This document shows positions 14,541-35,478 of a stretch of DNA of 37,038 nt, piece after piece; position 1 is the stretch's first letter; each line of letters begins with the position of its first letter. The stretch lies in the NCBI GenBank assembly GCA_024636975.1, contig JAGXGA010000012.1:1-37038 (forward strand), written 5' to 3'. The notes below the pieces were generated by a model. The model saw nothing but the letters and a program-made list of their open reading frames with translations. It was not told where the DNA came from and ran no database searches. A program made the position numbers and the translations under genes. Origin of the DNA: Mariniphaga sp. GTDB taxonomy: Bacteria > Bacteroidota > Bacteroidia > Bacteroidales > Prolixibacteraceae.

Positions 14541-14817
14541 TATTTGAGAAGTTTTTATAAAATTAATAACTATTTAGGACATTCTCAAGAATCTTTTGAA
14601 AACTACTTCAAGCAGATAATCCATCAACAATTCGCTTATAATTATCCGGAGGCATATTCTAATGAATATCAGTAAAAATTTTATAAATCAAATTCAAAAT
14701 TGTGTAACAGCTTATCCGTCATACCTTGGTAACTTTGTTAGAAAGGGAAGAGACAGAAAGCAAGGTGAATGTACCCGAACAGGTTACCAACTTCTTGTCA
14801 GGTTAATTGAGAAATAA
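14541..14817 (+). CDS. Small uncharacterised ORF pair upstream of the copper operon
   Basis: ATG 14662 opens a 51-residue basic frame to TAA 14815 (MNISKNFINQIQNCVTAYPS, then YLGNFVRKGRDRKQ). It has a good ribosome-binding site GGAGG at 14648-14652, 9 nt before the start. A second frame without an ATG (possible TTG at 14544) runs to TAA 14673-14675, encodes HSQESFENYFKQIIHQQFAY and overlaps the first by 14 nt. They could be two small coupled genes or one gene broken by a frameshift. I do not recognise either. The word AATTGTGTAAC inside the second frame resembles the regulatory motif seen elsewhere in this window. Confidence 0.3.
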
Positions 14818-14905: not shown

Positions 14906-17011
14906 ATGGAAAATTCACACAACCATCAGAATCATGATCACAATTCCAATTCAAATAACCGGCATTCATCGAAACCTGAAAAAAAGGAAATGGCTGAAGA
15001 AACCATGGATTCACCTCACCATGAACATGAGGAAAAAGGTAATGGACATAACGGGCATGACCAAGGCGGCCATGATCATACATCAATGATTGATGATTTC
15101 AAAAAAAGATTCTGGATTTCGCTTGTTGTTTCAATTCCTGTTGTACTGCTCTCAGAAATGATTCAGCACTGGTTTGGTTATACGATTAACTTTCCCGGCG
15201 ACAGTTATGTACTTGCCGTTCTTTCCACGTTCATTTTCTTTTATGGCGGCTGGCCATTTTTGAAAGGGGTATGGGATGAAGTCCGGAAAAATGCCATTGG
15301 TATGATGACCCTTATTGGTGTTGCCATATCAGTAGCCTGGGGATACAGTACAGCTATTGTTTTTGGTTTGGAAGGTATGGATTTTTACTGGGAAATGGCA
15401 ACCCTTATTGTAATTATGCTTTTTGGTCACTGGATGGAAATGAAATCTATCAGTCAGGCATCAAAGTCACTTGAATTGCTGGTTAAAATGATGCCTTCGG
15501 AGGCCAATGTAGTTAGAGGGGACGAAGTAGTAAAAGTAAGGGTGTCGGAAATATCGCCGGGAGATATAGTGTTGGTTAAACCGGGTGAAAAAATACCTGT
15601 AGACGGGAAGGTGATTGAAGGCGAAACTCATATTGATGAAAGCATGCTGACAGGCGAGAGCAAGCCTGTAAAAAAAATAAAGGGAGAAAAAGTCATTGGT
15701 GGTTCAGTTAACGGGAATGGGTCTGTTAAAATAAAAGTAACTTCAAGCGGCAATGACAGTTACTTAAATAAGGTAATTAAGCTTGTTGAGGATGCACAGA
15801 AAGAAAAATCGAAAACTCAGCACCTGGCAAATAAAGCTGCTAGAATATTGACCTTTGTTGCTTTAGGTGTTGGTTTTATTACCCTGTTTACCTGGCTTCT
15901 GCTTGGTTTTGAATTTGTCTTTGCCCTGGAAAGAATGGTTACAGTTATGGTCATATCATGTCCTCATGCACTGGGGCTGGCAGTTCCACTTGTAGTTGCT
16001 ATTTCAACTTCAATTTCTGCACGAAAGGGACTGCTAATCAGAAACCGTACTGCCTTTGAAAACAGCCGTAAAATAACAGTTGTAGTATTCGATAAAACCG
16101 GCACACTTACAAAGGGGTCACATGAACTGACTTCTATAAAGTCATTGTCGGAACACTATTCCGACGATGAATTACTTCGGCTTGCGGCAGCTGTTGAACA
16201 ACATTCGGAGCATTATATTGCGAAAGGAATTCTGAATAAAGCCAAAGAAATGAAGTTGAAGGTTCCCAAGGCAGAGAAATTCAATTACCTGCCTGGTGTA
16301 GGTCTGGAAGGTACTGTTGAAGGAAAGGAAATAAAAGTAACAGGTCCCAACTATTTAAAAGATAAAGGCATTAAAGCACCTTCAGTTGGAGACGATGAAG
16401 GAACTTCTACGTTGGTATATGTTATTATTGCAGGTAAAGTAGTAGGTTATTTTTCGTTTGAGGACCAGCTAAGAGAAGAATCTTTCGAAACAATCAGGAT
16501 ACTCAAGGAGCAGGGTATTGAAAACCTGCTGCTGACAGGCGATAATGAAAGGGTTGCCAAAAAAGTTTCTGATGCATTAAACATGGACGGTTTCATAGCG
16601 AATGTGCTTCCACACGAAAAACAGGAAAAAGTTAAGGAATTGCAGCAAAAAGGACACTTTGTTGCTATGACAGGTGACGGTATCAATGATGCCCCTGCGC
16701 TTGCACAGGCCAATGTGGGCATCGCTATCGGTTCAGGTACTGATGTTGCCGCCGAAACTGCAGATATTATTCTTGTCAACTCCAATCCAAAAGATATTGC
16801 CAATCTCATCCTTTTTGGAAAGGCCACCTACAGGAAAATGGTACAAAACCTGGCATGGGCCACAGGTTATAACCTGGTAGCTATTCCTCTTGCAGCCGGA
16901 GTTTTGTATAATCAGGGTATCGTATTAAACCCTGCAGTGGGAGCTGTTTTAATGAGTTTAAGCACCATAATAGTAGCAATAAATGCTCAGTTGTTAAAGA
17001 AAACCATTTAG
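14906..17011 (+). CDS. copB: CopB-type P1B-3 copper-translocating ATPase
   Basis: This ATP-driven metal exporter of 701 residues sits in the inner membrane. The first 60 residues are His-rich (many HxH and HDH groups), a metal-sensing tail typical of CopB. The transmembrane metal site is CPH at 352-354 rather than CPC, and MSLST at 683-687 lies in the last helices; together they mark subtype P1B-3, copper with a preference for Cu(II)/Cu(I). The catalytic elements are TGES 249-252, DKTGT with phosphorylated Asp396, and TGDGIND 589-595. The nucleotide-binding loop reads SEHY at 434-437 instead of the usual SEHP. It is the first gene of a four-gene metal operon. Confidence 0.92.
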   Translation: MENSHNHQNHDHNSNSNNRHSSKPEKKEMAEETMDSPHHEHEEKGNGHNGHDQGGHDHTSMIDDFKKRFWISLVVSIPVVLLSEMIQHWFGYTINFPGDSYVLAVLSTFIFFYGGWPFLKGVWDEVRKNAIGMMTLIGVAISVAWGYSTAIVFGLEGMDFYWEMATLIVIMLFGHWMEMKSISQASKSLELLVKMMPSEANVVRGDEVVKVRVSEISPGDIVLVKPGEKIPVDGKVIEGETHIDESMLTGESKPVKKIKGEKVIGGSVNGNGSVKIKVTSSGNDSYLNKVIKLVEDAQKEKSKTQHLANKAARILTFVALGVGFITLFTWLLLGFEFVFALERMVTVMVISCPHALGLAVPLVVAISTSISARKGLLIRNRTAFENSRKITVVVFDKTGTLTKGSHELTSIKSLSEHYSDDELLRLAAAVEQHSEHYIAKGILNKAKEMKLKVPKAEKFNYLPGVGLEGTVEGKEIKVTGPNYLKDKGIKAPSVGDDEGTSTLVYVIIAGKVVGYFSFEDQLREESFETIRILKEQGIENLLLTGDNERVAKKVSDALNMDGFIANVLPHEKQEKVKELQQKGHFVAMTGDGINDAPALAQANVGIAIGSGTDVAAETADIILVNSNPKDIANLILFGKATYRKMVQNLAWATGYNLVAIPLAAGVLYNQGIVLNPAVGAVLMSLSTIIVAINAQLLKKTI

Positions 17012-23147: not shown

Positions 23148-23298
23148 ATTAATAGTTTTGGGACATGAGTGCTAACGGGAACATTATTGAAGTAATTATG
23201 ACTGCCCCCCGATTTGGGTGCTAACTTTGAAAATTCCTTTTAAACTGTCTTGTCAAAGGAATAATATTTTACTTATGCCTTTTGCGATGCCGAATTCT

Positions 23299-23328: not shown

Positions 23329-23913
23329 TTGAAAATATTCATTAGAAATATGGTCTGTAAACGCTGCCAGATGGTGGTTAACTCCGAACTGGAAAAATTG
23401 GGCGTACACCATATTAATGTAAAAATAGGGGAAGCGGAATTTGATGAAAGCCTGTTGCCTGAACAACTGAATCAATTGAATGATGAGTTAAAAAAGGCAG
23501 GACTGGTATTGATGAACGACAAGAAAAGCATCCTGATTGAAAAAATAAAAAGTGCAATAATCGAACTTGTGTATTTTTCAGAAGAACAAATCAGAATGAA
23601 CCTTTCGGATTTCCTCAGTGAAAAGCTTGATTATGATTACACCTACCTTGCTAATCTGTTTTCCGAAAGCTGTGGAATGACCATAGAAAGGTTTTATCTG
23701 ACAAACAAAATAGAAAGGGTGAAAGAACTGATTATTTATGATGAACTGAATCTTTCGGAAATTGCCTACCGGATGCATTACAGCAGCGTAGCACATTTAT
23801 CCAATCAGTTTAAAAAGTTCACCGGCCTTACCCCCACCGGATTCAAAATGCTTAAAAACAAATCACACAGCTCCATCGATAATGAGAAAGCACATAATTC
23901 TGCAAAAAACTAA
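23329..23913 (+). CDS. AraC-family regulator with N-terminal HMA-like domain
   Basis: The 194-residue regulator starts with an HMA-like fold (KIFIRNMVCKRCQMVVNSEL) that carries the Cys pair C10-C13. It continues through a helical linker to a double helix-turn-helix AraC domain (NLSDFLSEKLDYDYTYLANL and LNLSEIAYRMHYSSVAHLSN). This layout is common in Bacteroidota and fits a metal-sensing regulator, perhaps of the copper operon 5 kb upstream (inference). The start is TTG 23329-23331: a stop codon lies in frame at 23317-23319, so an upstream start is not possible, and the next ATG (23350) would delete most of the first HMA strand. Confidence 0.82.
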   Translation: MKIFIRNMVCKRCQMVVNSELEKLGVHHINVKIGEAEFDESLLPEQLNQLNDELKKAGLVLMNDKKSILIEKIKSAIIELVYFSEEQIRMNLSDFLSEKLDYDYTYLANLFSESCGMTIERFYLTNKIERVKELIIYDELNLSEIAYRMHYSSVAHLSNQFKKFTGLTPTGFKMLKNKSHSSIDNEKAHNSAKN

Positions 23914-23928
23914 TTGGGAGTATTTATT

Positions 23929-24438
23929 CTAATTCATTGAATACCCACTCAGCGATCTGGCTAGCTTTTTCCTTGAAAAAAATATCCGGCTTTTAACCGT
24001 TCCAAGTGGTAATGCCATCCGTTCTGCAATTTCTTTATATTGATATCCTTCAAGGAATAAATTGAAAGGTATCCTGAAATCATCATTCAGAGCATTGATA
24101 GCTTGTTTTATTTCGCTGGTATTGTAATATGATTCGGGTGAAGGAAAAACATTGTCTTCCGAAAACAACAGGCGAAGATCATTGGGTGACTCTTCAAAGA
24201 TGTTTCTTTTTATTACTTTCCTTCGGTAATTATTTATGTATGTATTCTTCATTATGGTGTATACCCAGGCTTTAAAGTTTGTGTCTGCTTTGAACTTATC
24301 CTTGAACAACAACGCTTTTAACAGGGTATCCTGTAATAGGTCGTCGGCACGGTCGGAAGCTGAGGTTAAACTAAGGGCATAAAATTGAAGATTGCTTTTT
24401 AATTCCAGAAGATTACTGGTAAACTGACACTGATTCAT
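23929..24438 (-). CDS. ECF-type RNA polymerase sigma factor
   Basis: The 169-residue sigma-70-family protein has region 2 (about 12-75, with SASDRADDLLQDTLLKALLF and FKAWVYTIMKNTYINNYRRK) and region 4 (about 112-160, with EGYQYKEIAERMALPLGTVK and SRIFFSRKKLARSL). It directs polymerase to a stress or envelope regulon. No anti-sigma gene is adjacent; the neighbouring small lipoprotein and PAS genes share its promoter layout, so they may be in its regulon or under a common regulator. It ends 15 bp from the convergent HMA-AraC gene. The start ATG 24438 is supported by the -7 box at 24466-24473. Confidence 0.9.
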   Translation of the reverse strand: MNQCQFTSNLLELKSNLQFYALSLTSASDRADDLLQDTLLKALLFKDKFKADTNFKAWVYTIMKNTYINNYRRKVIKRNIFEESPNDLRLLFSEDNVFPSPESYYNTSEIKQAINALNDDFRIPFNLFLEGYQYKEIAERMALPLGTVKSRIFFSRKKLARSLSGYSMN

Positions 24439-24465
24439 AGCGCTATTATATGGTTTTTATTTATT

Positions 24466-24533
24466 TAAAGATAATGCAGATTCCTGATCCAGGGATTACA
24501 CTTTTATTAATTAATCTTATATAATTCACACTT
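24466..24533 (-). promoter_or_regulatory. Promoter block of the ECF sigma gene with paired 21-bp-spaced motifs
   Basis: On the minus strand the order is: a far motif GTGTGAATTATATAAG (ending near 24533), a near motif AAGTGTAATC 21 bp closer to the gene, a 21-nt gap, and the -7 box TATCTTTA (24466-24473), 27 nt before the ATG. The same geometry occurs upstream of the next two genes. Confidence 0.55.
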
Positions 24534-24570
24534 ATGAAAAGTTAAGCTGCTGGTTGATTTTCCAGAGACA

Positions 24571-24604
24571 AAAAAAAAATCATACCAGATCCTGGAATGA
24601 TTTT
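24571..24604 (-). terminator. Hairpin terminator of the small lipoprotein gene
   Basis: AAAATCATaCCAG pairs with CTGGaATGATTTT around loop ATC, with one mismatch. On the minus strand the hairpin is followed by a run of about nine T. It lies about 45 bp downstream of the stop at 24651, as expected for an intrinsic terminator, and separates the lipoprotein from the sigma gene. Confidence 0.7.
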
Positions 24605-24650
24605 CATTTGCAGAATTAATTGAATGATCACTAATATTCTAAAAATACTT

Positions 24651-25094
24651 TTAGTAAAAAGAATTTGTTTGTAGAATTTTTTCAGAATCGGGATACCTTA
24701 CATCAATACCATTTTCGGCAGTGACAAAAAACCTGACCGGCTTGTATGAGGTTACTGTCTCCAGTGAAGCAATGTGTTGTTTCGATAAAAAACCGGTAGA
24801 ACTTTTTAATTGTCCCAGGTTTTCATTATTTCCCCTGTCTGTTTCCATCCAGAGCACATAAGTATCTTTTGATGTCTGCAGGCGTTCAACTTCTGCCAGA
24901 TCTTCGATCTGCACCTTTATGACATAATTCTGATTTCCGTCTTTTTTGACCTTTACATTACCTGTAGCCGACGGAACAACTGATGAATTTAAAAAAGGTT
25001 CGGTGCTTGAACATGATGCAATAAACAGCATCATCGATATAAGAATTAATCCTGAAAAGAAAATCTTTTTTATCCGGCGCAATTGTGTTTTCAT
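24651..25094 (-). CDS. Small lipoprotein of a Bacteroidota stress-associated type
   Basis: The 147-residue lipoprotein has the start MKTQLRRIKKIFFSGLILIS and the lipobox FIASC. The mature part (ATGNVKVKKDGNQNYVIKVQ, AEVERLQTSKDTYVLWMETD, PVRFFVTAENG) resembles an uncharacterised Bacteroidota family with a beta-sandwich outline. No enzyme motif is visible. I chose ATG 25092-25094: the -7 box at 25133-25140 lies only 6 nt before the longer start at 25127, so the long version would lack a leader. Its promoter layout matches the sigma and PAS genes on either side. Confidence 0.7.
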   Translation of the reverse strand: MKTQLRRIKKIFFSGLILISMMLFIASCSSTEPFLNSSVVPSATGNVKVKKDGNQNYVIKVQIEDLAEVERLQTSKDTYVLWMETDRGNNENLGQLKSSTGFLSKQHIASLETVTSYKPVRFFVTAENGIDVRYPDSEKILQTNSFY

Positions 25095-25132
25095 AACGAA
25101 AGTTTTAAATGTTGTATAAGATTCCATCTAAG

Positions 25133-25199
25133 TAAAGGTAATTATGTTTTTACCCCTAAACGTTATATAATTCATGATATGATTTGCATTATTCACACA
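25133..25199 (-). promoter_or_regulatory. Promoter block of the small lipoprotein gene with paired motifs
   Basis: On the minus strand the far motif is TGTGTGAATAATGCAAA, and 21 bp closer lies GAATTATATAACG. After a 21-nt gap comes the -7 box TACCTTTA (25133-25140), 38 nt before the ATG at 25094. Confidence 0.55.
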
Positions 25200-25268
25200 T
25201 TTAATAGGGCAAAATGATAATCTGGCTGCTTATAATCAATATTTGGTATGATGTTATAAATGAACTGA

Positions 25269-25841
25269 TTACCCGGTATGTTTTAATTTTGAAAGATTTA
25301 CCACCGATAACAGGCAGTTCTGTTCATTTTCTGTAACAATGCCTTCTATATAAACCAGGCATAGTGGATTTCCTTCATAACCAAGCATTATCTTGCATGA
25401 TTCTTTTGCATTGCTTGAATATGTTTTTTTTAAAAATAAATTGAACTCTGATTTTGATTCATCGGAGACAAACAGTTTAAAGTTGGTTCCTTTTAAGGTA
25501 AAGCGCCTTTCGCACAACATATCTGCACCCGTAAAATTCAATTCGCTTATTGTACCATCAGGTTCAAGCAGGAAATACCCCATTGCTGCGAGATCAAACA
25601 GTAAGGTGTATTTTTTCAATGCTATTTCTGCTGTTTCATTAGCCTGTCGCAATGCATCGTTTTGTAATTCCAGTTCTGTTTGTTTTACCTTTAACTCATA
25701 ATGAAGTTTTCTATAATCAATTTCATGGATAATTGTAATTTCTTCCTTTTTTTCAACAAGCTCTTCAGCCAACTTCCGCAGAATTTGTGCATCGGTATAA
25801 TCCATCTCATCTCCCGTCATAGGTATTACATTTACTGCCAT
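25269..25841 (-). CDS. PAS-domain protein without a kinase domain
   Basis: The 190-residue protein has an N-terminal helical segment (LRKLAEELVEKKEEITIIHE, LKVKQTELELQNDALRQANE) of the kind that precedes PAS domains in hybrid kinases, then one PAS domain (KYTLLFDLAAMGYFLLEPDG, ISELNFTGADMLCERRFTLK), and ends just after it at HTG. There is no HisKA, HATPase or output domain, so it may be a sensor that acts by protein contact, or a truncated kinase. A separate remnant with the same ELEVHPLELEMQN-type segment lies at 33144-33353. Its promoter layout matches the sigma factor and lipoprotein genes. Confidence 0.75.
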   Translation of the reverse strand: MAVNVIPMTGDEMDYTDAQILRKLAEELVEKKEEITIIHEIDYRKLHYELKVKQTELELQNDALRQANETAEIALKKYTLLFDLAAMGYFLLEPDGTISELNFTGADMLCERRFTLKGTNFKLFVSDESKSEFNLFLKKTYSSNAKESCKIMLGYEGNPLCLVYIEGIVTENEQNCLLSVVNLSKLKHTG

Positions 25842-25886
25842 TGTTTTTTAATTTTCCTGTTAAATTTATTATTCATTTCATAGCAG

Positions 25887-25956
25887 CAAAGTTGAGAATA
25901 TGGGTGTTTAAACCCATTACATAATTTCCTGAATATTTTGTATAATTCACACATTC
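25887..25956 (-). promoter_or_regulatory. Promoter block of the PAS-only gene with paired motifs
   Basis: On the minus strand the far motif is GAATGTGTGAATTATACAAA and the near motif, 21 bp closer, is GGAAATTATGTAATGG. After a 21-nt gap lies CAACTTTG (25887-25894), one base from TAnnTTTG, 45 nt before the ATG at 25841. Confidence 0.5.
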
Positions 25957-26334
25957 AGGGAAGTTGGGGGCTGGGTTAAGGCAGTGGGACAAGTGGGACA
26001 CCGGGGACTAGAGACCGAGTGATGCTGTTTAGCTGTTTCCTTTCTTTCTGATTTCTGTTCTTGCTTTGGACATTCGCTCACGCAAGCCTCCTTCATGGGA
26101 CTTTTGGGACACTGGGGACTACGGTTTTAAAGCTAGCATGCTGCATAAATAACGTTTGGGACACTTGTGACCATTTATTTAAGCGGCATGCATCCCAAAA
26201 GACGTTTGGGACAGCAGTGATCCCTGTCGCAGTAGTCACAGGTGTCCCAGAAATATGTTATTACAAACAGGGGAGCAGCAACAGCCACAATGCTTACTCC
26301 CCTCCCCCTTTCCTGGCACTGCCATCTCCCTGTC
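25957..26334. repeat. Non-coding stretch with a degenerate GGGACA repeat cluster
   Basis: No gene is supported. Units such as GTGGGACAAGTGGGACACCG at 25983-26009, TTTGGGACACTGGGGACTACG at 26102-26123, and two copies of ACGTTTGGGACA at about 26152 and 26202, followed by CTTGTGACC and GCAGTGATCC, recur here. It looks like decayed copies of an intergenic repeat. Confidence 0.55.
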
Positions 26335-26445
26335 AAACTCAATATAAACTCAATATAAACTCATACTTAATTCAATGTAAATTCAATTATAATTGAATTT
26401 ACATTGAATTATAACTGAATTAACACTGAGTTAACATTGAGTTAA
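26335..26445. repeat. Ten-unit array with exact 11-bp period, switching orientation at its centre
   Basis: Words ACTCAAT or ATTCAAT (the third unit is ACTCATA) start at 26337, 26348, 26359, 26370 and 26381. Then the inverted word ATTGAAT, ACTGAAT, ACTGAGT or ATTGAGT starts at 26392, 26403, 26414, 26425 and 26436. Every step is exactly 11 bp, also across the centre. The middle is a perfect 21-bp inverted repeat with a 2-bp spacer (26368-26411). Confidence 0.85.
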
Positions 26446-26763
26446 ATAGGGCGAAGGTAGTATGGAGGTAGCAGGAAGGTAGTATTGTTAATAGATGAAT
26501 GCACTTATTGTGCAGGTGAACTCAATTCACCAGCTCAGGAAGAACGATCCGGGGAAAAGGCAATTGCTGCATTATAATGGAATGCGGCTGTATTCAGGTA
26601 CAGCCGGCAAAGAGATTAGGCATGCCGGCTATGCTGAAGGGCTGCCGTAGGGGGGTTATTCCAGACGTGAAAACAATGCCGGCTGAAGGCAATTCAGACT
26701 GTGTGCACCTTTACCTTATTATTTAATTAATCCAGCGTGCAAGGTGCACCTTTTACCTGGCAA
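26446..26763. other. Intergenic stretch with short direct repeats
   Basis: No gene is seen. GAAGGTAGTAT occurs twice (around 26453 and 26480), ATGCCGGCT occurs twice (around 26620 and 26670), and GTGCACCTTTACC (about 26702) recurs as GTGCACCTTTTACC (about 26743) just downstream of the hybrid kinase gene. Confidence 0.4.
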
Positions 26764-29700
26764 CTATTCATTCGCAGGTACTTGAAAAATATGCTTTTGC
26801 AAAACACGGTACAACGTTTCTTTGGCAATGGGCTTAACCAGGTAATCATTAAATCCGAGGGTGGTAAAATTAAGTATCTCTTTTCGCATGGCATGAGCCG
26901 TTTCAGCAATTACTGGTATAGTGGGATTTTGCTGGCGGATGGATTGCAGTACTTCGTAGCCGTTTTTTTTCGGGAGCCGGATGTCAAGCAACACCAGGTC
27001 CACCTTATTTTCTGAAAATCGGGCAATGGCTTCTTCACCGTCCTCCGCAGTCAGGATGCCGGCCCCGGTTTGTTCTACCAGGTATTTAAGCATTTCGCGG
27101 CTAAAATCATCGTCTTCAACAATCAGGATGGTTTTTCCTGATAAGTTGGGAGTCGATTCATCAAGCACTGCATGATCATCATCAAGCCTTTTTCTTCCCT
27201 CCAGGTAGGGTATCGTAAAATAAACCGATGTGCCTTTATTTTTTTCCGAGTCCAGCGAGATACGTCCCCCCATATTCTCTACAATTCCTTTGCAGATTGT
27301 AAGCCCAAGACCTGTGCCTCTAATTGCATGTTCAGGGTTTAGCTCCCCTTGCTGGAACCTTTCAAACAGCAGTTTCTGATTTTCCCTGCTTATACCGCTG
27401 CCGGTATCTTTCACAAAAAACAAAACAGTTCCATCACTTATTTCATATCCAAACTCCACTTTCCCTGTATCGGTAAACTTGAAGGCATTGCTTATCAGGT
27501 TATGTAACACCTGCTGCAGGCGGTAATGATCGGTTTGTATAACATTTTCCTTTTCAGGTATAATTAACTGGAATCTAACATCGTGTTTTCCATGAGCATA
27601 AATTATCCCTTTGAACTGTCCCTCCGTACTCCTCATAAATTCATTCAGGGCAATGGCTTCTGTAACCAGTTTCAGTTCACCGGCTTCAATGCGCGAAACA
27701 TCCATGATGTCGTTAATCAGGTTGAGCAACTGGCTGCCTGATTCAGAAATAGTTTCGAGGATTTGTTTATGATTCTCATCACTTGTCAAATCTTTCAATA
27801 TGGTCGTGAAACCCAGGATGGAATTGAGTGGTGTACGTATTTCGTGCGACATGTTTGATAAAAAGGCCGATTTAGTGCGATCAGCCCGTTCTGTTTCGGC
27901 ACGGGCTCTGATAAGTTCATCTTCCCGGAATTTTATTGTTGATATATCCTGGACAATGTTAGATATTGCTACTACTTCATCTGCTTCACTTTTTATAGCC
28001 GACATGGTAATGGCTACCGGGATGGCCTTACCCGATTTATTACGGTGAACTGTTTCAAAACTTTTTACTTTTTTACCCTCCAGCAAGGTTGTTATGAGCA
28101 GTGAAAATTCCTCTCTCTCAGGAAATGATATCAGCTTATCTGCTTTTTTGTCAATCGTTTCGCTTTTGCTGTAGCCGTATAAGGCCTCTGCTCCGTTGTT
28201 CCACCAAAGTATTTTCCCGTTGGGTGATGTGCTGAAAATGGCATCTTCCGATGCTTCCACAATGGAGGCCAGGTGCCGGCGGTATTTAATGACCTCCTTT
28301 TTGTCCTGGGTTACATCCTGAATAAGTGTTGCCACCTGGCCGGGTTCAGAAGAAAAGAAATGAATGTGAAAATATTTATTCAGCGCTTTGTAGTAATACT
28401 CCTTGTGTATGGTTTCCCCACCTAAAATCTGAGGTGCATTTTTCATAAAATCGGATACCATTTCGCTGTCAGGGAAGGTTTCCGAAATGTCTTTATTTAG
28501 AATCACGTTCAGTGTTAATCCCATCATAAGGGCAAATGCCGGGTTTGCTTCCACAAGCTGCGCCGATTTTATTTTTCCTTTGCTGTCTGTTTTCACTTCA
28601 TACACAGCAAGCCCGTTATCCATATAACGAAACAGGTTTCTGAACTTTTCGTCTTTGGCTTTTATAAGCCTCTGTATCTGGTTTTTTTCAGTAATATCGG
28701 TGAAGGTAACCACCACCCCTTTAATAATATCTTCAAGCGTACGGTAAGGTCTTATCCGCATCCAGTACTGTCTGCCGTTTTCGGGTTCAATCTCTTTCTG
28801 AACCGGTGAAAGATGTTCAAGCACTTCGGCAGCATCCGCTTCCAGTGCCTTTCCGTCAAACTTTATGCTGAAATCCTTTATACTCCTATCCTCGTCTGTC
28901 TTGTTCAGGTTGATGATTTCTTTTACCTGTGGCGTAAATCGCTGTATTTTTAGTTCTTTATCGAGAAACAACATGCCAATTTGCTTGTTGCGCATTAAGT
29001 TTGCCAGGTCGTTGTTTACTTCAGAGTACTCCTTTATTTTTCGTTGCAATTCAGAATTTGAAGTTTCCAGTTCTTCGTTCAGCGACTGCATTTCTTCCTT
29101 CGAGGTTTCCAGCTCTTCGTTGGCACTTTGCAGCTCTTCATTCGACGATTGTGCTTCTTCGTTTGCCGATTTCAGTTCTTCGTTCGCAACTTCAAGTTCC
29201 TCTATCAGGCTGTTCAGGTAATCGCGCGTTTCTTCCAATTCCCTTTCTATTTCAGCAATGTATTCATCGGAATCTGCTTTTACTTTCGTTTTTTGCCCGC
29301 CTTCTGTTTTATCCTGAGGACTAACCTGCGGGTAAATTACTACTGTAAAAAGGTTGTTGTATGCATCGGGCTTTTTTATAGGGCTGATACGTATTGATAC
29401 TGTCCGGTCTGCCTTTCTGTCCCTGATGTTGTTTATGATGATTTCTTTTCCATCCTCTTTAATTTTCCTTAAGGCATTCGATATCGGAATCTTAATGTTC
29501 TCGCGGGCTGCATTTATTATGTTATTATCCGGATCGCCCACCTGGAATTTAAAATAGTCCTCACACCTTCCTATTGAATGCAGGATTTCACCGTTTTCCC
29601 CCATTATTAAGAATGGGAAAGGATATTCTTTCAACGCCCGCCGTTCGGCAAACTCCCTTAAAGTCAGTTTTTGTTTATGGGTAGCAGGATAATTTGTGTT

Positions 29701-31179
29701 ATAACGGCCCTTCTCATGTGAGAAATTCACAAAATCGCGCCTGGCCTGGCGGCTTTCTATTTTTCTGAAAATTTTGTATTTTGTATCGATAACTTCAAAC
29801 AAATTGGGTTTCTCGCTCACTGATTCCGAGCTTCCCAAAAACAGGAATTTATGGGGCTTAAGCCCATAGTGCAGTGTGTTGATTACTTTTTTCTGAATAT
29901 CGCCGTTCAGGTAAATCAGGAAATTGCGGCAGGTAATCAGGTCGAGGTTTGAATAAGGCGGGTCTTTAATCAGGCTGTGTTCGGCAAATACAACCAGATC
30001 CCTGATATTGCTCCGGATAGTATAATTCGATTCATGTTTTTCAAAATACTCTTCCAGTAGTTCAAGCGGAAAATCTGCTTCAATATTTAGGGGATAACTG
30101 CCTTTCCGGGCTTTATTCAGGGCAACCGTATCAATATCGGTTGCAAAAATACGAATCGGGTTCCTGGCGTTTTTCTTTTTTAGATGCTCCAACAGAATAA
30201 TGACAATGGAATAAGCCTCCTCACCGCTTGAGCAGGCTGCCACCCATACTCTTATTGTTTCGTTTTTAGATGTATTATCAACCAGTTCTGAAATAACTTT
30301 ATTTTCCAACACCTCGTAAGCCTTTTTATCACGAAAAAAGGAAGTGACGCCAATTAACAACTCCTTTAGCAGGTTTTGCGCTTCATTCTTATCTTTTTTA
30401 ATGGTTTCAAAATAACTGTTCACTGTCATCAGCGAACGAACCATCATGCGCTTTTTAATGCGGCGAAGAATCGTTGAACGTTTGTAATTCGAAAAATCAT
30501 GCCGGGTATTTTCCTTCAGAATTTCCAGTATCTCCGTAATTATTTTTTCTGTTTCTTCATCTTCAGGCAATTTTTTGATACCATCGTGCATGGTAGGCAA
30601 TTCAACCAGTTTTTCTGGCATAGTATCTATATCGCATACAATATCTACAACACCCGTTTCAATGGCATTTCGCGGCATCGAATCAAATTTTGCACTTTGT
30701 GGTTCCTGAGCAATTACACACCCGCTGTTTTGTTTTATCTCTTTTATGCCCTGGCTGCCATCGGAACCACTCCCGGTAAGCACCACCCCCACAGCCATCT
30801 CCTTATAGCTTTTTGCAAGCGAACGAAAGAAGAAATCAATGGGCAAGTGCAGCCTTTTTTCCCCCGACTTATACTTTGTAACCTCGAACTTATCATTTGA
30901 AATACCCAGGTAATGCCCTACCGGCGGGATGTACACACAATTGGGTTCCAGCTTTAAGTGGTGAGTAATTTTCTGCACCTGCATACCTGTCTTCCGCTGA
31001 ATAATCTGATCGAGTATGCTATCATGGGTGGGCGACATATGCTGTATCACTACAAACGACATGTTCGTATTTGCCGGTAACTTCTCAAATAATTTTTCAA
31101 GTGTAGGAATACCATCCGCAGAGGCTCCTATACCAACAACAAAATTTACCTCTTTGGGAGTTTCCTTCTCTACACTCAT
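26764..31179 (-). CDS. CheB-CheR-PAS hybrid histidine kinase with receiver
   Basis: This 1471-residue sensor has, in order: a CheB methylesterase domain (about 10-195; catalytic S20, H47, D140), a CheR methyltransferase domain (about 215-475; VWVAACSSGEEAYS near 311-324), a linker to about 630, a coiled coil of repeated ANEELKS/SNEELQS heptads (about 645-725), three PAS-like domains (about 735-830, 845-960, 965-1085), HisKA with His1112 (NMSHEIRTPLN), HATPase (about 1210-1325, with ISNAFKFT and GTGLGL) and a receiver with Asp1399. It lacks the N-terminal receiver of classical CheB. Such proteins occur in Bacteroidota and probably sense signals through the PAS domains; the stimulus is unknown. 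It may pass phosphate to the stand-alone receiver at 18614-19009. Confidence 0.93.
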   Translation of the reverse strand: MSVEKETPKEVNFVVGIGASADGIPTLEKLFEKLPANTNMSFVVIQHMSPTHDSILDQIIQRKTGMQVQKITHHLKLEPNCVYIPPVGHYLGISNDKFEVTKYKSGEKRLHLPIDFFFRSLAKSYKEMAVGVVLTGSGSDGSQGIKEIKQNSGCVIAQEPQSAKFDSMPRNAIETGVVDIVCDIDTMPEKLVELPTMHDGIKKLPEDEETEKIITEILEILKENTRHDFSNYKRSTILRRIKKRMMVRSLMTVNSYFETIKKDKNEAQNLLKELLIGVTSFFRDKKAYEVLENKVISELVDNTSKNETIRVWVAACSSGEEAYSIVIILLEHLKKKNARNPIRIFATDIDTVALNKARKGSYPLNIEADFPLELLEEYFEKHESNYTIRSNIRDLVVFAEHSLIKDPPYSNLDLITCRNFLIYLNGDIQKKVINTLHYGLKPHKFLFLGSSESVSEKPNLFEVIDTKYKIFRKIESRQARRDFVNFSHEKGRYNTNYPATHKQKLTLREFAERRALKEYPFPFLIMGENGEILHSIGRCEDYFKFQVGDPDNNIINAARENIKIPISNALRKIKEDGKEIIINNIRDRKADRTVSIRISPIKKPDAYNNLFTVVIYPQVSPQDKTEGGQKTKVKADSDEYIAEIERELEETRDYLNSLIEELEVANEELKSANEEAQSSNEELQSANEELETSKEEMQSLNEELETSNSELQRKIKEYSEVNNDLANLMRNKQIGMLFLDKELKIQRFTPQVKEIINLNKTDEDRSIKDFSIKFDGKALEADAAEVLEHLSPVQKEIEPENGRQYWMRIRPYRTLEDIIKGVVVTFTDITEKNQIQRLIKAKDEKFRNLFRYMDNGLAVYEVKTDSKGKIKSAQLVEANPAFALMMGLTLNVILNKDISETFPDSEMVSDFMKNAPQILGGETIHKEYYYKALNKYFHIHFFSSEPGQVATLIQDVTQDKKEVIKYRRHLASIVEASEDAIFSTSPNGKILWWNNGAEALYGYSKSETIDKKADKLISFPEREEFSLLITTLLEGKKVKSFETVHRNKSGKAIPVAITMSAIKSEADEVVAISNIVQDISTIKFREDELIRARAETERADRTKSAFLSNMSHEIRTPLNSILGFTTILKDLTSDENHKQILETISESGSQLLNLINDIMDVSRIEAGELKLVTEAIALNEFMRSTEGQFKGIIYAHGKHDVRFQLIIPEKENVIQTDHYRLQQVLHNLISNAFKFTDTGKVEFGYEISDGTVLFFVKDTGSGISRENQKLLFERFQQGELNPEHAIRGTGLGLTICKGIVENMGGRISLDSEKNKGTSVYFTIPYLEGRKRLDDDHAVLDESTPNLSGKTILIVEDDDFSREMLKYLVEQTGAGILTAEDGEEAIARFSENKVDLVLLDIRLPKKNGYEVLQSIRQQNPTIPVIAETAHAMRKEILNFTTLGFNDYLVKPIAKETLYRVLQKHIFQVPANE

Positions 31180-33353: not shown

Positions 33354-33387
33354 AATTTGTTGTACACCCCACAAAATTGATAATATG

Positions 33388-33440
33388 CGAATTATGTAAC
33401 TTTTATTCAGAATTGTGTAACTATTTATTCTTTAAATAGT
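33388..33440 (+). promoter_or_regulatory. Paired GAATTATGTAAC motifs and hairpin upstream of hybrid kinase
   Basis: GAATTATGTAAC (33389-33400) and GAATTGTGTAAC (33410-33421) lie exactly 21 bp apart, the same spacing as the motif pairs before the sigma, lipoprotein and PAS genes. ACTATTTA-TTCTT-TAAATAGT (33420-33440) is a perfect 8-bp hairpin right after the second motif. I did not find a clear -7 box at the 21-nt position here. Confidence 0.5.
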
Positions 33441-33507
33441 CCGAAAATAGAAGATTAATTCAAACACAGTGACAGTCTAAAAGTAAACCCATTTAAAAAT
33501 AGATACT

Positions 33508-35478
33508 ATGTCTCATGCAACTGATTCTCAAAATTCAGAAATGATAAAATCAACATCTTCTTTAGAGGAATCTTTAATTGCTTCGGAAATTCGCTATCGC
33601 CGCCTTTTTGAGTCGGCAAAAGACGGGATTTTAATCCTTGATGCCGAAACCGGGATGATTGATGACGTGAATCCGTTTTTAATAAAATTGCTGGGCTACT
33701 CGAAAGAAAGTTTTATTAAAAAAACAATCTGGAAAATAGGGTTCTTTAAAGATATTCTCGACAATAAAGAGAAATTTTTAGAATTACAACAAAAGGAATA
33801 TTTGCGTTACGAAGATTTACCGCTGGAAACAGCCGATGGGCGAAAAATACATGTAGAATTTGTGAGCAATGTATATTTAGTGGACAGTCAAAAGGTTATT
33901 CAATGCAATATCCGTGATATTACCGAGCGTAAAAAATTGGAAACGAATTTATTAACTGCAACAGAAATTGCAAAACTGGGGTATTGGGAATTTGACGTTA
34001 AATCGGGGAATTTTATTTTTGATGACCAGTATTACAGACTAATTCACGGGTCATCGACTGAAAAGCAGGGCAGTAATATAATGAGTGCTGAAGAATTTGC
34101 CGGAAGACTTGTCCATCCCGATGATTCAAAAATGGTAGCTGAAAAATTACAGGAAGCAATAACTTCCCCTGCCCCTGAATATTTAGGGCAAGCAGAAGCA
34201 AGGGTTTTTCGTGAAAACGGAGATATTATGGATGTAATGGTTCAATTTAAAGTGATAAAAGATCAATTTGGAAATACACATACGGTTTATGGAATTAATC
34301 AAGACATTACAGAACAGAAACAATTTGAACAGGAGTTAATGCGCGCCAAAGAAAAAGCCGAAGAAAGCGACCGTCTGAAATCAGCTTTTCTGGCCAATAT
34401 GAGCCACGAAATTCGTACACCAATGAATGGTATTCTGGGTTTTATAAGTCTGTTAAAAACTCCAAAGTTGCCCGGTGAAGAGCAGCAGGAATTTATTGGT
34501 GTTATAGAGAAAAGCGACGCCCGGATGCTCAACATTATTGACGATATTATTAATATCTCGCAAATTGAATCCGGAAATATTGAAATTTCCATTTCGGAAA
34601 CGAATATAAATATTCAGGTTGAGGACACTTTTAATTTCTTTAAACCCGAAGCAGACAATAAAAAATTGAATCTATCTTTTAAAAATATACTGCCTTCCCA
34701 TGAAGCAATTATCAAAACTGACAGGGAAAAAGTTTACGCAGTGCTTTCTAACCTTGTAAAAAATGCATTGAAGTTTACACAAACAGGATCGATTGAATTG
34801 GGTTATGAGAAAAAAGGCGAATTCCTTGAGTTTTTTGTAAAAGATACAGGTACAGGTATTACACAGGAACAAAAAAAAATCATTTTTGAACGGTTCAGGC
34901 AAGGCAGCGAATTATTAACCCGAAATTACGAAGGAGCGGGTTTGGGACTGGCAATTTCAAAAGCTTATGTTGAAATGCTTGGAGGTAAAATCTGGATTGA
35001 GAGTAATAAAAAGCAGGGTTCAACATTCCGTTTTTCTATTCCTTATCTTAATGGGAATGAAAAAAAAGAACAATTTCCTGTTATTACTGAGAAAGAAATC
35101 CTTAATCCCGGAAAGTTGAAAATACTGGTAGCAGAAGACGACGAAACATCCATGATGTTATTGGAAATTATGATTAAGCCTCTGGCCAGCATTTTTTATC
35201 AAGCCATTACAGGTAAGGAAGCTGTTGAGTTCTGCCGCATAAATCCTGATATTGATTTGGTGCTGATGGATATTCAGATGCCGGACATGGATGGATATGA
35301 AGCGACCCGGCAGATTCGTGAATTTAACAAAGAAGTTGTTATTATAGCACAAACAGCTTATGCCTTAGCAGGAGATTGTGAAAAGGCAACTGAAGCAGGA
35401 TGCAACGATTATATTTCAAAGCCCTTTAAAATGAATGAATTAACAGAAATGATTGAGAGTTATGTTTTACAACTATAA
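33508..35478 (+). CDS. PAS-PAS hybrid histidine kinase with receiver
   Basis: The 656-residue cytoplasmic sensor has two PAS domains (about 25-145 and 150-275, the second ending in GINQDITEQKQ), HisKA with His300 (LANMSHEIRTPMN), HATPase (about 395-515, with NLVKNALKFT and YEGAGLGLAISKAYVEM) and a C-terminal receiver with Asp588 (LVLMDIQMPDMDGYEAT) and Lys in SKPF. It has no membrane segment, so it senses a cytosolic or diffusible signal. The 97 nt between the paired upstream motif and its start carry no other gene. The following gene, an AAA-ATPase sensor, starts about 97 bp after its stop and has its own -7 box. Confidence 0.92.
   Translation: MSHATDSQNSEMIKSTSSLEESLIASEIRYRRLFESAKDGILILDAETGMIDDVNPFLIKLLGYSKESFIKKTIWKIGFFKDILDNKEKFLELQQKEYLRYEDLPLETADGRKIHVEFVSNVYLVDSQKVIQCNIRDITERKKLETNLLTATEIAKLGYWEFDVKSGNFIFDDQYYRLIHGSSTEKQGSNIMSAEEFAGRLVHPDDSKMVAEKLQEAITSPAPEYLGQAEARVFRENGDIMDVMVQFKVIKDQFGNTHTVYGINQDITEQKQFEQELMRAKEKAEESDRLKSAFLANMSHEIRTPMNGILGFISLLKTPKLPGEEQQEFIGVIEKSDARMLNIIDDIINISQIESGNIEISISETNINIQVEDTFNFFKPEADNKKLNLSFKNILPSHEAIIKTDREKVYAVLSNLVKNALKFTQTGSIELGYEKKGEFLEFFVKDTGTGITQEQKKIIFERFRQGSELLTRNYEGAGLGLAISKAYVEMLGGKIWIESNKKQGSTFRFSIPYLNGNEKKEQFPVITEKEILNPGKLKILVAEDDETSMMLLEIMIKPLASIFYQAITGKEAVEFCRINPDIDLVLMDIQMPDMDGYEATRQIREFNKEVVIIAQTAYALAGDCEKATEAGCNDYISKPFKMNELTEMIESYVLQL

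Follow-up and report, generated by a model that had tools for sequence, protein, structure and literature searches.

Genes and promoter elements of the window

The window analysed here is a stretch of 37,038 nucleotides (contig C31, positions 1-37038) of a source genome of 5.76 Mb in 67 contigs. It carries genes for an ECF-type sigma factor, a small lipoprotein and a PAS-like protein on the minus strand and, beside the sigma factor gene, a gene for an AraC-family protein on the plus strand (Table 1). The lipoprotein and the PAS-like protein gave no Pfam match, and the NCBIfam match of the latter to a PAS kinase family is weak and far under the cut-off. The lipoprotein reading frame has a second ATG (25094) 11 codons after the first (25127). 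The second is the likelier start, since the inferred transcription start (~25128) meets the first ATG and since the signal peptide and lipobox, recognised by eye, start at the second.

Table 1 Genes and predicted promoter elements in the window
Feature	Position	Strand	Basis
AraC-family gene, 194 aa, proposed regulator	23329..23913	+	Pfam HTH_18 5.3e-14
ECF-type sigma factor gene, 169 aa, predicted target	23929..24438	-	Pfam Sigma70_r2 and Sigma70_r4_2
Aligned region, ECF sigma promoter	24530-24466	-	minus-strand alignment
Far repeat TGTGAATTATATAAG, ECF sigma promoter	24516..24530	-	sequence, alignment, bipartite-pattern search, PWM
Near repeat AAAGTGTAAT (degraded), ECF sigma promoter, 21 bp from far repeat	24495..24504	-	sequence, alignment
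-7 box TATCTTTA, ECF sigma promoter	24466..24473	-	whole site PWM 34.9
Small lipoprotein gene, predicted target	24651..25094	-	sequence
Aligned region, lipoprotein promoter	25197-25133	-	minus-strand alignment
Far repeat TGTGAATAATGCAAA, lipoprotein promoter	25183..25197	-	sequence, alignment, bipartite-pattern search
Near repeat ATTATATAAC, lipoprotein promoter	25162..25171	-	sequence, alignment
-7 box TACCTTTA, lipoprotein promoter	25133..25140	-	site PWM 48.8
PAS-like protein gene, 190 aa, predicted target	25269..25841	-	weak NCBIfam match, PAS kinase family
Aligned region, PAS promoter	25951-25887	-	minus-strand alignment
Far repeat TGTGAATTATACAAA, PAS gene promoter	25937..25951	-	sequence, alignment, bipartite-pattern search
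Near repeat ATTATGTAAT, PAS gene promoter	25916..25925	-	sequence, alignment
-7 box CAACTTTG, PAS gene promoter	25887..25894	-	site PWM 44.2
Additional predicted site	14673-14737	+	PWM 28.8; far repeat degraded, near repeat ATTGTGTAAC, -7 box TAACTTTG
Additional predicted site	33386-33450	+	PWM 32.4; strong far and near repeats, expected position lacks a good -7 box

The regions upstream of the sigma factor, lipoprotein and PAS genes align without gaps on the minus strand, from TGTGAAT through the -7 box. All three have a far repeat (alignment positions 6-15) and a near repeat (positions 27-36) exactly 21 bp apart, and exactly 21 nt separate the near repeat from the -7 box. In the three-way comparison, 25 of 70 columns were identical vs 8.1 ± 2.5 in 5000 dinucleotide shuffles, none of which reached 25. 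Since the alignment was anchored on GTGTGAAT, the figure without the far motif is the fairer one; it amounts to 13 of 55 columns vs 5.3 ± 2.1, a value reached by 8 of the 5000 shuffles. The PWM that scored the three sites as listed in Table 1 was built from loci of other genomes, and on the reversed sequence (110,040 bases) it gave no match of 6 or higher.

The first-pass annotation had described this shared geometry, including the partial near core of the sigma copy, and had judged the identical spacing unlikely to arise by chance. Its observation is right, with the near repeat of the sigma promoter being degraded, and it was understated. A mere chance likeness of AT-rich upstream regions, to which the composition of positions 24001-26000 (34% GC) would lend itself, is for all practical purposes ruled out by the shuffles, by the reversed and spacing controls and by the other genomes described below.

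Two further predicted targets in the window were added by the PWM. The first additional site is located 168 nt ahead of a copper P-type ATPase gene (14906-17011; TIGR01511, 1.2e-180), and the second precedes a gene for a PAS hybrid histidine kinase (33508-35478; Pfam HisKA, HATPase_c, Response_reg and PAS). A CheB-CheR-PAS-HisKA-REC fusion of 1471 aa (26764-31179) adjoins the PAS-like gene; it has no upstream site of PWM 8 or higher in the window. A hybrid similar to this fusion comes after araC in genome G094. Short words of the type TTGGGACA/GGGACACC recur in intergenic sequence at 25985-26260 and at 23160, and a nearly palindromic AT-rich run around AATTCAATTATAATTGAATT is found at 26350-26450.

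Homologues of the lipoprotein with the motif just upstream occur in G196 (48% identity, PWM 47.6) and G014 (40%, PWM 28.4). Counting the window's own, the motif is thus present at three of nine homologue loci; the six others, including that of a paralogue in the same genome, have no upstream site of PWM 10 or higher. Homologues of the PAS-like protein were found at five of the best 80 of 570 AraC loci introduced below, and the one at a Mariniphaga locus (L149, 49%) has a site 393 nt upstream.

Occurrence of the motif in the source genome and in other Bacteroidia

With at most one mismatch, the far motif alone has 30 matches in the whole source genome vs 13 for the reversed pattern. Four further matches (L003, L007, L008 and L010) are accompanied by a near repeat and a -7 box in the same register. 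The first-pass annotation had proposed a search of this and related genomes for the bipartite pattern. In the source genome, this search yielded 24 sites vs one for the reversed control (at most three mismatches); its wording drew on the three window sites and on the four further ones, and these seven are counted among the 24. In 296 Bacteroidia genomes it yielded 408 sites vs 30 in the control (at most two mismatches), with 101 genomes being positive. An element limited to the three window genes is ruled out by the 24 genome-wide sites.

Fourteen of the 24 source-genome sites lie within 32 kb on contig C5 (5046-36731), and one on contig C36 has the AraC paralogue on one side and, on the other, a protein interpreted as a P-type ATPase. 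The three-mismatch matches on contigs C12, C21 and C38 may be due to chance. Site-rich genomes include G094 (31 sites), G015 (24), G195 (20) and G080 (19). Only one or two sites were found in 62 of the 101 motif-positive genomes, and some of these may likewise be chance matches.

The consensus of the element is aatgTGTGAATnATGTAAcTnwTTnnnnnArTTrTGTAAC-N21-YAnCTTTG. No prior report of the bipartite motif was found in the part of the open-licence PMC literature that was covered.

Promoter character of the sites

A same-strand ORF start follows within 400 nt at 156 of 183 sites (median distance 40 nt; two sites of this set were entered twice owing to the overlap of two stretches), compared to 359 of 1600 random placements. 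A placement at random relative to genes, which the first-pass annotation had named as grounds against its reading, is therefore not what was found. Only 6 of 167 sites fall inside ORFs of at least 100 aa vs 1256 of 1600 random points.

Columns outside the search pattern are conserved as well, namely A59 (166 of 167 sites), the A at -2 (92%), T28 (87%) and T19 (78%). The conserved box reads Y58 A59 n C61 TTT G/A, with C commoner than T at position 58. In Flavobacterium psychrophilum, the sigma-A -7 box is TAnnTTTG at -12 to -5 and ECF-type promoters carry a CGT box (PMC9723704). The conserved YAnCTTTG agrees with the Bacteroidota sigma-A box and makes the sites resemble sigma-A promoters, and it is not a CGT-type -10 box.

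Two explanations had been offered in the first-pass annotation, either a single regulator that occupies two sites at a distance of two helical turns or a promoter class of the neighbouring ECF sigma. The former is strongly supported, as the geometry recurs in many genomes. The latter could draw on the fact that the sigma factor gene itself bears the element, but the -7 box is of the housekeeping sigma-A type without a CGT box (A59 in 166 of 167 sites), and therefore this reading fails. In addition, the elements extend to about -69, beyond the usual sigma contacts, and relatives of the window sigma factor (E ≤ 1e-5) are scarce near sites, being present at only three of the motif-rich loci (best 80 of 570). 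Promoters read by the ECF sigma are thus very improbable and were rejected.

Bacteroidota sigma-A promoters have a TTTG -33 box. Such a box, 16-23 nt ahead of the -7 box, was present at 2 of 167 sites vs 4.6% in shuffled segments. Hence, the sites differ from these promoters in having no -33 box and in bearing upstream direct repeats in a fixed register. With the conserved box set as -12 to -5, the far repeat spans about -69 to -55 and the near repeat about -43 to -34. This geometry is that of an activator-dependent promoter.

The spacing of the repeats is sharp. In the 80 loci, spacings of 17-20 bp gave 0, 0, 0 and 1 sites and spacings of 22-25 bp gave 0, 0, 0 and 1. The offset between near repeat and -7 box is less sharp, with 167 sites at offset 0, 84 at -1, 27 at +2, 24 at +4 and 2-15 at each of the other five; the side offsets may be overcounted through matches of CTTTR to T-rich sequence nearby.

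The AraC-family protein beside the sigma factor gene

The AraC-family protein has a ferredoxin-fold N-terminus (residues ~1-62) with a CxxC motif (C10, C13), a linker helix and a C-terminus with two HTH motifs (96-172). Its HTH_18 score of 52.7 bits is above the cut-off of 33.6, placing it among the AraC/XylS double-HTH proteins. Members of this family carry the two HTH motifs in a C-terminal domain of ~100 residues, have a distinct N-terminal domain for sensing or dimerisation and bind direct half-sites beside the promoter. The structure model (pLDDT 86.2, pTM 0.74) has the same ferredoxin-like N-terminus and two-HTH C-terminus. With Foldseek, the C-terminus matched AraT, YesN, MarA, SoxS and AraC domains (AraC DNA-binding domain 2k9s), and the N-terminus matched, at weaker E-values, proteins of the CopZ/Atx1 type (2roe 0.024, 6ff2 0.045). 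A profile search also reached 1p6t, the metal-binding domain of a copper ATPase (E 0.004).

In its N-terminal fold, the protein resembles CopZ/Atx1 chaperones and copper ATPase metal-binding domains (2roe, 6ff2, 2qif, 1p6t). The CxxC of the window copy and the copper ATPase gene among the predicted window targets are further likenesses. It differs from them in its fusion to an AraC-type domain and in the first cysteine, which is conserved in 26 and replaced by serine in 54 of 80 homologues (best 80 of 570 loci). C13, the second cysteine, shows no variation among the 20 homologues that were aligned. Because a copper ATPase relative (E ≤ 1e-30) occurs at only three of the best 80 of 570 AraC loci and serine frequently replaces the first cysteine (54 of 80), copper was not accepted as the settled signal; copper sensing is a possibility rather than a result.

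Escherichia coli AraC at araI1-araI2 occupies a pair of direct half-sites spaced by 21 bp, of which the promoter-proximal one abuts the -35/-33 region. The window system shares the C-terminal double HTH, the 21-bp distance of the putative half-sites and the location of the near one at the -35/-33 region. It differs in that the protein is short and carries a ferredoxin-fold, CopZ/Atx1-like N-terminus instead of a sugar-binding cupin, in its recognition sequence, in the Bacteroidota -7 box and in the large number of promoters.

Linkage of the motif to the AraC gene

Relatives of the AraC protein (E ≤ 1e-15) were found in 157 of 296 genomes, and the source genome has one close paralogue (C36:87059-87607, 50% identical). 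Of the 39 genomes with three or more sites, 34 have the gene vs 123 of the 257 others (Fisher p = 3e-6, kinship uncorrected), and in at least 12 genomes the matched AraC stretch is no more than 50 bp away from a motif site.

For a closer comparison, the best 80 of 570 confirmed AraC loci (1.31 Mb) were used; they are not independent, with two coming from one MAG and others from close kin, and they include two non-Bacteroidota records (one Ignavibacteria, one Myxococcales). With at most two mismatches, these best 80 of 570 loci held 167 sites in 66 loci vs none in the reversed control. At PWM ≥ 20, 206 sites in 76 of the best 80 of 570 loci were obtained vs none in reversed sequence, with the PWM being trained on these same loci. 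When half of the loci were left out of the training, all 40 held-out loci had sites (99 vs 0), the training and test halves each containing kin of the other. The nearest site was at most 150 bp from the AraC gene in 51 of 76 loci (PWM ≥ 20).

In 25 of the best 80 of 570 loci, the AraC stop codon forms part of the far repeat (TG-TGA; at most three mismatches), while in 13 of these 80 best loci a site ends at most 120 bp upstream of the matched AraC start (same threshold). The overlap of the AraC coding end with the operator of the following gene is recurrent, with its 25 instances among loci L131-L210, and was also seen at the paralogue, where the operator of the next gene overlaps the stop codon as TG-TAA (C36:86990-87607, L063:8991-9614). 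No site was found upstream of the window AraC gene in the PWM scan, so self-regulation is not seen in the window.

These results make the adjacent AraC-family protein the most likely regulator. Another, more widely kept regulator could bind the repeats, with the AraC genes being merely frequent members of the regulon. A role as target would by itself also yield the linkage of motif and AraC gene, and at some loci AraC is itself a target at the very least, since 10 of 130 site-downstream genes match HTH_18. Four site-rich assemblies without an AraC protein of this family, for which we have no explanation, point in the same direction. Against it stand the 21-bp direct repeat, which is the geometry of AraC at araI1-I2, and the end-to-end fusion of site and AraC gene in 25 of 80 loci (best 80 of 570). 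Moreover, no other DNA-binding family was present among the 25 most frequent of 66 families of 98 proteins from G195, G239 and G124, with 8 response regulators counted as such irrespective of their output domains. On balance, we regard such a different regulator as unlikely.

Genomes and loci that do not fit

Five of the 39 site-rich genomes (G117, G124, G153, G195 and G239) have no AraC protein of this family by single-sequence search, profile search or PF12833. In G094, a relative of G195, a hybrid kinase gene rich in repeats comes after an AraC gene with an upstream site. The counterpart of this kinase gene in G195 is 88% identical and breaks off at the edge of contig C36 of that assembly; as the kinase gene that follows araC runs off the contig, the G195 AraC gene may lie in the gap. 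The absence from G117, G124, G153 and G239 is without explanation, and most sites of these four genomes look genuine from their sequence. Short tandem peptide-coding repeats were observed in G239 (L217, L244, L245 and L246), and the starts of its contigs C24 and C46 are nearly identical, a sign of assembly breaks at repeats.

Conversely, sites with two mismatches or fewer are missing from 80 of the 157 AraC-positive genomes, and 4 of the best 80 of 570 AraC loci have none even at PWM ≥ 20.

Predicted regulon

The genes downstream of the sites (130 complete genes of at least 60 aa, best 80 of 570 AraC loci) most commonly matched the Pfam families Ice_binding (17), OmpA (11), Cupin_2 (11), HTH_18 (10) and Big_5 (9), followed by, among others, MlaE (4), HisKA (4), CsbD (4), BON (3) and PAS_9 (3); these are raw counts, as opposed to enrichments, from the 25 most frequent of 69 families. 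The neighbourhoods in G195, G239 and G124 encode response regulators (8), YceI (6), ferritin-like (2), YtxH (2), AHSA1 (2) and DnaJ_C (1) proteins, as counted among 98 proteins that were chosen from 164 ORFs and are not only site-downstream; these numbers come from the 25 most frequent of 66 families. On contig C5 of the source genome, YtxH-like, PRC-barrel-like, AI-2E-type, OmpA-like, Mla, CbpA/CbpM and CheB/PAS proteins were recognised by eye from the ORF sequences, so that the genes there read as stress and envelope genes.

The ECF sigma factor gene is most likely a target of the switch. It is conceivable, if rather doubtful, that sigma factor and PAS protein form a downstream branch in which the AraC-type regulator would switch on the sigma factor and the latter would control further genes with other promoters, an arrangement compatible with AraC-dependent activation. 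The sigma factor gene is a predicted direct target and PAS, CheB and hybrid-kinase genes are recurrent among the predicted targets, but relatives of the sigma factor are rare near the regulon elsewhere.

Proposed mechanism and relation to known stress regulons

Taken together, the best explanation, which we consider probable, is that the sites are AraC-activated sigma-A promoters of a stress and envelope regulon found in many Bacteroidia, with AraC binding being predicted. The three window sites would be activator-dependent promoters of this kind. The motif, its geometry, its placement at promoters and its link with the AraC family are what the comparisons show, whereas binding, dimer formation, activation and signal are predicted. 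We infer that the AraC-family protein next door, or its 50%-identical paralogue, would bind the two direct half-sites 21 bp apart as a dimer. Given its position at about -43 to -34, the near half-site would take the place of the missing -33 box, with the activator adjoining the sigma-A RNA polymerase. The CopZ/Atx1-like N-terminus of the activator is the presumed sensor of copper or of the thiol/redox state and would respond through its invariant cysteine. The sigma factor, lipoprotein and PAS genes would be targets, along with sensor kinase, stress-protein and envelope genes elsewhere.

The SigB and RpoS general stress regulons are run by an alternative sigma factor. Like these, the predicted regulon has CsbD, YtxH, ferritin-like, YceI and DnaJ proteins and PAS sensors at or near its sites. 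It differs in that it appears to depend on an activator of sigma-A promoters; the promoters have a sigma-A type box, which does not suggest control by an alternative sigma factor.

More tentatively, and with slightly less than even confidence, we propose a widespread general stress regulon of Bacteroidia without an alternative sigma factor. In such a regulon, an AraC-type activator with a metallochaperone-like domain would read the copper or thiol state and act on promoters of fixed 21 + 21 geometry, and the regulator gene would often carry the operator of the next gene across its own stop codon. We know of no established general stress regulator in Bacteroidota, and none was found in the part of the open-licence PMC literature that was covered. 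An operator-promoter signature together with a candidate regulator that has an unusual sensor domain makes this question testable in many genomes, and the predicted regulon of ice-binding, envelope, CsbD, Mla and signalling genes adds to that testability. The promoter signature would also help to annotate small unknown genes.
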